The position numbers and the translations under genes were made by a program. This document shows, piece after piece, positions 3,010-6,519 of a stretch of 23,248 bases of DNA (position 1 is its first letter; each line of letters starts with the position of its first letter). Origin of the DNA: a virus; IMG/VR virus record IMGVR_UViG_3300033145_002464, positions 1 through 23,248 of that record; one strand, given 5' to 3'. The notes beneath the pieces are model-generated. The model was not told the origin of the DNA and did no database searches. It saw nothing but the letters and a program-made list of their open reading frames with translations.

Positions 3010-3729
3010 TTGTTTTGGTCTAACAAGGAAATTAAATTATTAAAAAAGTTGTTTTATGATATGAAACTAATAGATATTCAGAAAGAATATTTTCCCTACA
3101 GAACATTTAAAGCATTGCGTAGTAAAGTATATAAATTAGGATTATATAAAGGTCATATATCTAAAAGTTATAAGAATAATAAAAATGCAATAGGATTTAG
3201 ACATACAAAAGAATTAAAGGAACGGTTTAGTAAAGCAAGAAAAGGAATTCCAAAATCTACAGAGTGTAAATTAAAAATGGCAAAAGCACATTTAGGGCAA
3301 AAAAAATCAAAAGAATCTGTAGAAAAAACAAGAAAAGGTTTAATAAAGAAATGGAAAGACCCTGAATTTGTAAAGAAAATGATGGATAAATTTAAAGTAA
3401 AACCAAACAAAAAAGAGAAAGAATTATTTAAGATAATTGAAGAAATTTGTCCTAATGAATATAAATTTGTAGGTGATGGAAAATTGATAATAGATGGTTT
3501 AATGCCAGACTTTATAAATATTAATGGGCAAAAGAAAATTATAGAATTTTTTGGAGATTATTGGCATTCCAATAAAGTAACTAAAGGGAATTATAGAAGA
3601 AGTGAAAAAGGACGGAAAGAAATTTTTGCTAATTTTGGATATAAAACTTTGGTAATTTGGCAAAGTGAATTTGACCATTTGTCTAAAAAAGAAATTGAGA
3701 ATAAAATTTTGGAGTTTAATAAATGTTAG
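3010..3729 (+). CDS. free-standing homing endonuclease (SANT-like, NUMOD3, Vsr-like PD-(D/E)XK)
   Basis: The 239 aa protein has three parts. Residues 3-45 form a SANT/Myb-like helix-turn-helix (WSNKEI...RTFKALRSKVYKLGL). Residues 65-115 are lysine-rich NUMOD3-type DNA-binding repeats (KARKGIPKS, AKAHLGQKKS). The C-terminal nuclease domain carries MPDF (Asp167), IEFFGDYWH (Glu179 to His186), then FGYKTLVIWQSE. This build matches the phage homing endonucleases with a Vsr-like catalytic domain (I-Bth0305I type). The start is TTG 3010, after GAGGGGGAG. The gene lies on no visible intron and overlaps the terminase small subunit start by 7 bases. It is highly A-rich even for this window. It probably cuts relatives lacking the gene, near the terminase locus; the exact target is unknown. 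Confidence 0.85.
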   Translation: MFWSNKEIKLLKKLFYDMKLIDIQKEYFPYRTFKALRSKVYKLGLYKGHISKSYKNNKNAIGFRHTKELKERFSKARKGIPKSTECKLKMAKAHLGQKKSKESVEKTRKGLIKKWKDPEFVKKMMDKFKVKPNKKEKELFKIIEEICPNEYKFVGDGKLIIDGLMPDFININGQKKIIEFFGDYWHSNKVTKGNYRRSEKGRKEIFANFGYKTLVIWQSEFDHLSKKEIENKILEFNKC

Positions 3730-4202
3730 AAACACTTAAAAATAAAGAAGTTTTTGAAATATATTATGCAATGGGTAGTGAAAGAAGTTTATCTAAATTA
3801 AGAAAAAAATTAATGTCCCCAGAATGTCCTTTAAGTGTCCCCAGTTTGAAGACTTTAAAACGATGGTCAGTAGCATTTAACTGGCAAGACCGTATCGAAT
3901 TGAGGGATATTGATAATGGCAAGAAATTAAAAGCTAAGACTGATAAAGCAGTTGTTAATTCAAAAGCTGATTATAGAGCTTTAATTAGAAAAGTTGTTGA
4001 AGAATTTGAACAAAAACTAAAAGACAAAAAAATTATAATATCGAAGCCCGGCGTTTTAGTCGAAATGGCAAAATTGGACTTGCTTATGATGGGCGAAGCT
4101 ACCGAAAGAGGGGAATTAAATATAACTAATGCCAAACAGAAACTCATTGATAAAATCAATAGCATTGCTAAGCGAGCAGGAGAGGGCAAAACTACTAAAT
4201 AG
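3723..4202 (+). CDS. terS: terminase small subunit
   Basis: This 159 aa protein should recognise the packaging site and present DNA to the large subunit. Residues 10-57 form a helix-turn-helix with the pattern seen in phage small terminases (FEIYYAMGS, then TLKRWSVAFNWQDRI), followed by a long charged helical oligomerisation region. The ATG at 3723 has GGAG 8 bases upstream and overlaps the end of the homing endonuclease gene. The last 74 bases overlap the start of the large subunit, a common arrangement that favours coupled synthesis. Position directly before terL supports the call. Confidence 0.82.
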   Translation: MLETLKNKEVFEIYYAMGSERSLSKLRKKLMSPECPLSVPSLKTLKRWSVAFNWQDRIELRDIDNGKKLKAKTDKAVVNSKADYRALIRKVVEEFEQKLKDKKIIISKPGVLVEMAKLDLLMMGEATERGELNITNAKQKLIDKINSIAKRAGEGKTTK

Positions 4203-6519
4203 TCTTACTGATGAGGAAGCCGAAGATTTATTGTATGATTGGTCAGTATGGGCAAGACCTCATCAGTTGCCGCCACATGGCGAATGGTTAACGTGGATGA
4301 TATTAACAGGGCGTGGATGGGGAAAATTATCTGATATTAATGATGATATCAGAACAATAAATGGTTGGAAGAAATTAAAAGATATTAAAGATAATGATAT
4401 TATTTTTAATATTAATGGAAGTCTCTGCAAAGTAATTAAAGCCCACGAAATTCAAGAAAAACAAGCATATAAATTATATTTTGATACTGGAGAAACAATT
4501 ATATGTGGTGAAGAACATTTATGGTATACCATATCAAAATTGGAAGATAAACAGATAAGAAGGGGTAAAAGAAAACGTGGTAGTATCAAAACCACTAAAG
4601 AGATAATTGAAACAATAAAATATAAAGCAAGGGAAACTAATCATAGAATCCCGATAACTAAACCCTTGAGATTTAAAAAACAAAAATTAGAGATAGAACC
4701 GTATACGCTTGGAATATGGTTAGGAGATGGAGATAGCAAGACCTCATGTATTACAACAGAAGATTTAGAAGTATTGGAATATATTAAAGCCGATGGTTAT
4801 GAAATAGGTAAACCTTTTGGAAAAGATAAAAATAGATATTCTGTTTCTAATAATGCTAAGCCAGTAAGAAATATATATACAGGACAATATAAAGCAAGTG
4901 GTTCTTTGATATCTTTATTAAAGGGAATGGATTTATATAAAAATAAGCATGTACCTTTTATATATCTGAATTCATCAATAAAACAAAGGACTGAATTATT
5001 AAAAGGTTTAATGGATTCAGATGGTTATTGTGAAAAAACTGGGCGATGTGAATTTGTAAGCGTTTATAAAAAATTAGCTGTCAATGTATTTGAATTAATT
5101 AATAGTTTAGGCATTAAAGCATGGATATTTAAAGGCAAATCTTATCTTAATGGAAAAAGACATAAGGATAAATATAGAATAAGGTTTAAAACTAATTATG
5201 ATGTTTTTAAATTAAAACGAAAACTAATTAATCAAAAGAATGCTACCAAAAATCAGATGAGCAGACATCAATGCAGATTTATTGTAAAAGCTGAAAAAGT
5301 AGGCAAGAAAAAAATGAGATGTTTAACTGTTAATTCTAAAGATGGTTTATTTTTAATAACAAAGAGTTTTATTGCTACTCATAATACCCGCACAGGTGCT
5401 GAATGGGTAACCGACCAAGCGAAAAATGGAGCTAAACATATTGCTTTAATTGGCCAGACTAAAGCTGATGTAAGAGATACCATGATAGAGATTGGCCCTT
5501 CTTCAATCCTCAAGATATCAAACCCTAATTTCTACCCCAAATACGAATCATCGAAAAGGCGTATAGTCTGGCCTAATGGATGTGTAGGAACTATATATTC
5601 AGGCGATGAGCCAGACCAGGTAAGGGGGCCTTCTCATGATAGGTCGTGGATTGATGAGCTGGCAAAATTCAAGTATCCACAAGATATCTGGGACAATCTA
5701 ATGTTCGGTCTTCGTGAAGGTGAAGATATGAGAATATTAGTTACTACTACTCCGAGACCAATTCCCATTATAAAGAATCTTGTTAAAGACCCAAATACTA
5801 TAGCGGTTAGAGGAAGCACCTATGAAAACAAAGATAACTTACCCAAAAAATACTTTGATTATGTTATTGCTCCTTATGTAGGCACTCGATTAGGTAAGCA
5901 AGAAATCGAAGGGCAGATATTAGAAGACAATCCTAATGCTTTATGGACAAGGAAAATAATTGATGATAACAGGGTGAACAAGGCTCCTGAATTAGTCAGG
6001 ATAGTAGTAGCGGTTGATCCTGAGGCAACAGCAACCGAAACATCTGCGGAAACAGGAATAATTGTTGGTGGAATAAGTGCCGATAGACATGGCTATATCC
6101 TTGATGACGCCACATTAAAGGGAACCCCCGATCAATGGGGAAAAGCTTCTACAGTTGAATACTTTAAATTTGGTGCTGATAGGATAATAGGGGAAGTAAA
6201 TAATGGCGGTGATATGATAGAGTATGTAATAAAGTCCTGTGACCCAGATGTAAGCTACAAAAGCGTCAGAGCTTCTCGAGGGAAATATGTGAGGGCTGAG
6301 CCAGTATCGGCTCTTTACGAGCAGGGACGTATTCATCACGTTGGAACATTTATAGACCTTGAAGATCAATTATGCGAGTGGGTCCCAGGTGATAAATCTC
6401 CCGATAGATTGGATGCCTTAGTATGGGCGATAACAGAATTATTGTTAGAGTCTGATTTGCCTCCAGAGATAGAAGCTAAGAGTACGGGGAGGACAGAGAC
6501 CGCTAATCAAGACTGGTAG
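4129..6519 (+). CDS. terL: terminase large subunit interrupted by an intein
   Basis: This is the ATP-driven DNA packaging motor and nuclease. The extein (443 residues after splicing) starts with a family-typical N-terminus (LLSEQERAKLLNSL, then YDWSVWARPHQ). Its Walker A GRGWGK-T is split by the intein after residue 66. Walker B is SWIDEL (Asp509-Glu510) and the coupling motif is TTTPRP (539-544). The RNase H-like nuclease has Asp630 (AVDP), Glu689 (GEVNNGG) and Asp762 (DRLDALVWA). Without splicing the P-loop is broken, so intein removal should be needed for packaging. The start at 4129 keeps the conserved N-terminus, though its ribosome binding site (GAGGGG) is distant. The class-defining details are in the intein entry. 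Confidence 0.95.
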   Translation: MPNRNSLIKSIALLSEQERAKLLNSLTDEEAEDLLYDWSVWARPHQLPPHGEWLTWMILTGRGWGKLSDINDDIRTINGWKKLKDIKDNDIIFNINGSLCKVIKAHEIQEKQAYKLYFDTGETIICGEEHLWYTISKLEDKQIRRGKRKRGSIKTTKEIIETIKYKARETNHRIPITKPLRFKKQKLEIEPYTLGIWLGDGDSKTSCITTEDLEVLEYIKADGYEIGKPFGKDKNRYSVSNNAKPVRNIYTGQYKASGSLISLLKGMDLYKNKHVPFIYLNSSIKQRTELLKGLMDSDGYCEKTGRCEFVSVYKKLAVNVFELINSLGIKAWIFKGKSYLNGKRHKDKYRIRFKTNYDVFKLKRKLINQKNATKNQMSRHQCRFIVKAEKVGKKKMRCLTVNSKDGLFLITKSFIATHNTRTGAEWVTDQAKNGAKHIALIGQTKADVRDTMIEIGPSSILKISNPNFYPKYESSKRRIVWPNGCVGTIYSGDEPDQVRGPSHDRSWIDELAKFKYPQDIWDNLMFGLREGEDMRILVTTTPRPIPIIKNLVKDPNTIAVRGSTYENKDNLPKKYFDYVIAPYVGTRLGKQEIEGQILEDNPNALWTRKIIDDNRVNKAPELVRIVVAVDPEATATETSAETGIIVGGISADRHGYILDDATLKGTPDQWGKASTVEYFKFGADRIIGEVNNGGDMIEYVIKSCDPDVSYKSVRASRGKYVRAEPVSALYEQGRIHHVGTFIDLEDQLCEWVPGDKSPDRLDALVWAITELLLESDLPPEIEAKSTGRTETANQDW
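4327..5385 (+). mobile_element. class 3 intein with LAGLIDADG homing endonuclease in the terL P-loop
   Basis: The 353-residue insert (residues 67-419 of the precursor) lies between Lys and Thr of Walker A. It starts LSDINDD, so position 1 is Leu, not Cys or Ser. The next block (INGWKKLKDIKDNDII) is a normal splicing block A. Block B reads GEEHLWYT with His130 and Trp132. Block F reads MRCLTV with Cys398 where Asp is usual. The C-terminus is FIATHN with Thr417 before His418-Asn419, followed by extein Thr420. Trp at B:12, Cys at F:4 and Thr at G:5 are the WCT signature of class 3 inteins, which start splicing from the block F Cys and do not need an N-terminal nucleophile. LGIWLGDG (Asp200) and LLKGLMDSDG (Asp298) are the two endonuclease motifs, both apparently intact. 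The insert looks more AT-rich than the extein. Confidence 0.88.

Follow-up and report, generated by a model that had tools for sequence, protein, structure and literature searches.

Our results point with high confidence to a class 3 intein of full length, lodged between the P-loop Lys and Thr of a Terminase_6-type large terminase (TerL); its LAGLIDADG endonuclease looks intact, and its splicing is predicted to be initiated by Cys332. As judged from its sequence, this intein is probably active and belongs to a known kind of element, and its N-terminal Leu, to go by its relatives, is a recurrent minority state of class 3 inteins and not a defect. The window (the whole stretch of DNA analysed, 23,248 bases) is the complete virus record IMGVR_UViG_3300033145_002464, which contains genes for head, packaging and tail proteins. 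The start of terL (Table 1) is common to intein-free relatives, whose alignments begin at residue 1. The insert covers residues 67-419 of the precursor, between the Lys and Thr of Walker A and in frame with TerL, from codon 67 (TTA, Leu), which begins at 4327, to codon 419 (AAT, Asn), which finishes at 5385, and forms a single open frame with no stop or frameshift. A preliminary description of this DNA had placed an insert at 4327-5385, splitting GRGWGK/T of Walker A; these coordinates are exact in the translated frame, with the junction given by empty alleles. Its 353-residue spliced product must be corrected, since 353 aa is the excised intein and the ligated TerL would be 443 aa, the length of TerL minus the insert. 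Trp132, Cys398 and Thr417 of the precursor are residues 66, 332 and 351 of the intein.

Table 1. Features of the interrupted terL gene (positions in the window; residue numbers of the intein)
Feature	Position	Strand	Basis
terL precursor ORF, 796 aa (443-aa extein + 353-aa intein)	4129..6519	+	PF03237 Terminase_6N, PF17289 Terminase_6C
N-extein, ends ...TGRGWGK (Walker A through Lys)	4129..4326	+	
Intein, 353 aa, Leu1-Asn353	4327..5385	+	empty alleles, alignment with relatives
C-extein, starts at Thr+1 (TRTGAEW...), remaining ATPase and nuclease domains	5386..6516	+	
A:1 Leu1 (TTA), not a nucleophile	4327..4329	+	
B:7 Gly61 (TxxH/DxxH position; covaries with residue 1)	4507..4509	+	
B:10 His64, invariant in small alignments	4516..4518	+	
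B:12 Trp66 (W of WCT)	4522..4524	+	
LAGLIDADG homing endonuclease region, approximate (residues 112-317)	4660..5277	+	Pfam Hom_end 1.2e-6; PI-SceI sequence match; model fold
LAGLIDADG motif 1, LGIWLGDG, Asp134	4708..4731	+	D134 invariant in alignment
LAGLIDADG motif 2, LLKGLMDSDG region, Asp232	4999..5025	+	D230, D232, G233 invariant in alignment
F:2 Met330 (covaries with residue 1)	5314..5316	+	
F:4 Cys332, predicted first nucleophile (C of WCT)	5320..5322	+	alignment; mechanism from PMC5222942
Block G Thr351-His352-Asn353 (T of WCT, then His-Asn)	5377..5385	+	

The C-extein was used to scan viral contigs and recovered 72 relatives, in 60 of which the TerL match spans the insertion site. None of these 60 carries an insert, and all read through Gly-[x]-Gly-Lys-Thr, the variants at the site being one GKS and one allele with an Ala beside the first Gly; the boundaries of the intein are therefore fixed independently of its own motifs. 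The preliminary description had suggested looking for intein-free alleles in related phages, and these 60 TerL alleles supply them: the nearest is 89.5% identical at the protein level, and the DNA around the empty sites equals that of the window at up to 45 of 48 bases. The empty alleles also support Thr as the extein +1 residue, as had been proposed. Note that the same TerL P-loop site harbours inteins with Leu1 (the window and L032), Met1 (L001 and L092) and Ala1 (L014 and L064).

Along its full length, the insert is homologous to class 3 inteins, whose definition and mechanism have been described (PMC3196547, PMC5222942, PMC4031507). Relatives were drawn from viral contigs, genome contigs and phage records, giving 205 unique full-length inteins with the window included; the scans of viral contigs overlapped heavily, so that this sampling is broad and not exhaustive. 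The WCT signature announced in the preliminary description held in this alignment, the check that it had proposed: Trp66 occupies column B:12, Cys332 column F:4 and Thr351 column G:5, and all three residues are invariant in 205/205 relatives, and the His-Asn end is present in 203/205. Some of the searches used a Trp-containing motif, so that the invariance of Trp is partly a product of selection, while Cys332 and Thr351 were in no search motif. In addition, position 1 is Leu and offers no Cys, Ser or Thr nucleophile, and the B:10 His (His64), the C-terminal Asn (His352-Asn353) and a Cys, Ser or Thr at +1 (here Thr) are all present. Block B of class 3 inteins has been described as DxxH (PMC12245125), whereas the window intein has Gly61 at B:7 (GxxH); DxxH is descriptive and not defining.

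The predicted fold agrees with this assignment. Indeed, the AlphaFold model of the intein (alignment of 98 sequences, with four rows from the phages collection left out) reached a pLDDT of 93.9 and a pTM of 0.92, and shows a HINT splicing fold plus a LAGLIDADG domain, an architecture like that of PI-SceI, with a splicing domain that resembles solved class 3 inteins. In Foldseek searches, PI-SceI was matched along the whole intein (E 1.7e-18), and the splicing domain matched 6riz (WCT-engineered gp41-1), 6rix and 6riy (MchDnaB1) and 6bs8 (Msm DnaB class 3) with E values of 1.7e-5 to 8e-4. Fold modelling had been proposed in the preliminary description, and its reading of the endonuclease motifs as intact stands as well, since both LAGLIDADG motifs are present with their catalytic aspartates, Asp134 and Asp232.

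By analogy with characterised class 3 inteins, Cys332 (F:4), aided by His64 and Thr351, would attack the Lys66-Leu67 bond (precursor numbering), the N-extein would then move to Thr+1, and Asn353 would cyclise, freeing a TerL of 443 aa with its GRGWGKT Walker A restored. Residue 1 would have no nucleophilic role in this scheme, and a Leu would therefore be tolerated; the combination of Leu1, Gly at B:7 and Met at F:2 probably reflects packing at the N-terminal junction. The endonuclease, for its part, would act on DNA and carry the intein into terL alleles that lack it. In the literature surveyed, the class 3 inteins that are best characterised have Ala1 and not Leu1 as here, and splicing of the window intein may be slow or conditional.

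The intein might in addition act as a regulator, a role added to class 3 splicing and not an alternative to it, in which TerL would stay inactive until a signal (redox, metal or temperature) and packaging would thereby be timed. Because the ATP-binding loop is interrupted, the precursor is expected to be inactive, without a working P-loop until spliced, and TerL P-loop inteins have already been discussed as requiring splicing for function (PMC5050341). Moreover, according to three reports (PMC6195587, PMC8557812, PMC7360933), mycobacterial DnaB inteins splice conditionally under oxidative stress, reactive chlorine and zinc. In contrast, the five mycobacteriophage terminase inteins that were assayed spliced readily (PMC5050341), about 60 relatives have no intein at this site, and the composition and patchy distribution suit a mobile element. 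Regulation of packaging by the intein, which the preliminary description had raised as a gate on packaging, is possible but in our view unlikely.

The loss of splicing in a dead or degenerating intein, which would leave TerL broken, is somewhat less probable still. Position 1 has no Cys, Ser or Thr, and there is a precedent for death in class 3 in Arth_1007, an intein that lost the F:4 Cys and the B:10 His (PMC3196547). The window intein keeps the B:10 His, Trp, Cys, Thr, the His-Asn end, Thr+1 and both endonuclease aspartates in its open frame, and relatives with Leu1 keep the same Trp, Cys and Thr. Furthermore, a single TerL was found in the record, and since the insert breaks its Walker A, failure to splice should be fatal to packaging. 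Finally, another splicing route, such as a direct attack by Thr+1 as in class 2 inteins, with Cys332 unused, is very improbable, because class 2 inteins likewise have no nucleophile at position 1 but those described use a direct Cys+1 attack and have Asp at F:4 (PMC4031507), whereas the window intein has Thr+1 and a Cys at F:4 with the paired Trp and Thr.

A Leu at position 1 is not exceptional in class 3 inteins. The preliminary description had supposed that Leu1 might be unusual for the class; it proved to be the second commonest residue 1 among the 205 relatives (17/205), after Ala (148) and before Gly (10), Met (9), Gln (7), Arg (4), Asp (4), Glu (2), Cys (2), Pro (1) and Lys (1), some of the rarest perhaps being one-residue alignment shifts. 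It also occurs in annotated phages, namely Proteus phage 10, Stenotrophomonas phage BUCTxx100 and Aeromonas phage D6. Leu1 as the mark of a dead intein was rejected, since it recurs alongside an intact WCT. A bulky hydrophobic residue 1 is therefore the sign of a recurrent variety of class 3 intein rather than of a broken one, and annotation that demands Cys, Ser or Ala there would overlook or mislabel phage inteins.

A link between residue 1 and F:2, two residues before the catalytic Cys, was first suggested by tabulating residue 1. We then used a likelihood ratio for correlated evolution to test, on a tree, 412 traits (a given residue in a given column of the splicing domain) against the residue-1 class; B:7 (Asp, 51.1) and F:2 (Val, 41.8) ranked highest among the columns, compared with a median of 4.8 and a 95th percentile of 17.2; F:2 had been spotted before the scan and B:7 had not. 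In a non-redundant set (134 inteins with less than 60% identity, 131 of them scorable), Asp, Ser or Glu at B:7, a grouping picked after the table was seen, was found in 92 of the 96 inteins with Ala or Gly at position 1 and in 2 of the 35 with another residue, while Met, Leu or Ile at F:2 was found in 5/96 and 25/35, respectively. The corresponding Fisher p values (3.5e-24 and 3.4e-14) ignore relatedness and are not to be taken literally, and likelihood ratios can also be inflated. The covariation persists on a tree of the endonuclease region only and on a splicing-domain tree without these columns, trees on which the residue-1 class changes at least 17-23 times.

The recurrent subtype with a large residue 1, in which 33 of the 35 members have no Asp, Ser or Glu at B:7, includes the window intein with its Leu1, its Gly at B:7 and its Met at F:2. 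These results argue, with fair though not full confidence, for two recurrent architectures of the N-terminal junction in class 3 inteins, with many switches between the two; residue 1 would serve for packing and be coupled to the catalytic pocket. The first would combine Ala or Gly at position 1 with an acidic residue or Ser at B:7 and Val or Thr at F:2; the second, which would include the window intein, combines a large residue 1 (Leu, Met, Gln or Arg) with Gly, Cys, Asn or His at B:7 and often Met at F:2. A contact between residue 1 and B:7 is plausible by analogy with KlbA, a class 2 intein in which the backbone N of residue 1 has B:7 and B:10 close by (PMC4031507). A general rule by which Leu1 is accompanied by Met at F:2 was weakened, since the Leu1 inteins of the three annotated jumbo phages have Ser, Thr or Ala at F:2, although Gly at B:7 is kept.

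That residue 1 covaries with B:7 and F:2 provides a concrete rule open to test, and this is, in our opinion, the part that merits the attention of specialists. Natural contrasts for the coupling between residue 1 and F:2 are provided by two pairs of inteins, each apparently at the same P-loop site: L277 (Met1 and Met at F:2) versus L023 (Ala1 and Val), and L306 (Arg1 and Met) versus L109 (Ala1 and Val). When WCT alone was grafted onto gp41-1, a class 1 intein, splicing was almost absent (PMC7664689); the covariation may bear on this failure, as a lead only, since the graft was made on an Ala1 construct.

Among known systems, the TerL inteins of mycobacteriophages (PMC5050341, mBio 2016) are the closest in host gene, especially TerL1-a, which likewise occupies the classic P-loop Lys/Thr site of TerL and is compared here by site. 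In that survey, class 1 and class 3 inteins were both present and TerL1-b and TerL1-c were endonuclease-active; in contrast to the window, whose host protein is of the Terminase_6 family, only site f (C-motif) was occupied in TerL6. The window intein further differs from the common combination of Ala1 and DxxH by its Leu1 and GxxH. The mycobacterial DnaB class 3 mini-inteins (MchDnaB1, 6rix/6riy; Msm DnaBi1, 6bs8) share with it WCT, the P-loop insertion and the HINT fold, but have no endonuclease, and MchDnaB1 has Ala1. The closest relative found, a TerL intein (L001, IMG/VR contig 3300012673_000004), shares the site and WCT and is 53% identical across all 353 residues, with Met1 and Leu at F:2. 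The class 3-like inteins of the helicase of Proteus phage 10, of BUCTxx100 and of Aeromonas phage D6 likewise place Leu1 right after a Gly-Lys P-loop and have a block F Cys and a Thr-His-Asn end, but they lie in other host genes and share only about 25-31% identity with the window intein.

The intein has a GC content of 26.6% (GC3 0.156), compared with 42% (GC3 0.341) for the extein. A second AT-rich ORF (3010-3729, + strand, 24.7% GC) lies directly upstream of the small terminase gene; it shows NUMOD-like repeats by eye, and in its C-terminal part 61 aa align at 40% identity with a protein of Acinetobacter phage ME3 annotated as a DNA mismatch (Vsr-like) endonuclease, so that it probably encodes a free-standing homing endonuclease. 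Neither the intein nor the 3010-3729 region occurs in L170, which is the nearest relative to have long flanks, and the flanking DNA is about 80-90% identical. The intein and this upstream ORF look recently acquired, which fits homing, loss in the relatives being the alternative.

In the stretch from about 3734 to 6519, the window and the nearest intein-free relatives are about 80-97% identical in DNA around the insertion, and the identity falls to about 60-80% from ~780 bases into the joined TerL coding sequence, possibly as the trace of a recombination or co-conversion tract. In another relative (L236:4378-5000), terL is split between its ATPase and nuclease domains by ~620 bases with an HNH endonuclease-like ORF, perhaps an intron, while Rfam found no intron in the window or in L236. 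Upstream of the packaging genes, the window also carries an N6/N4-type DNA methyltransferase gene (2095-2820, + strand; Pfam 2.8e-30).
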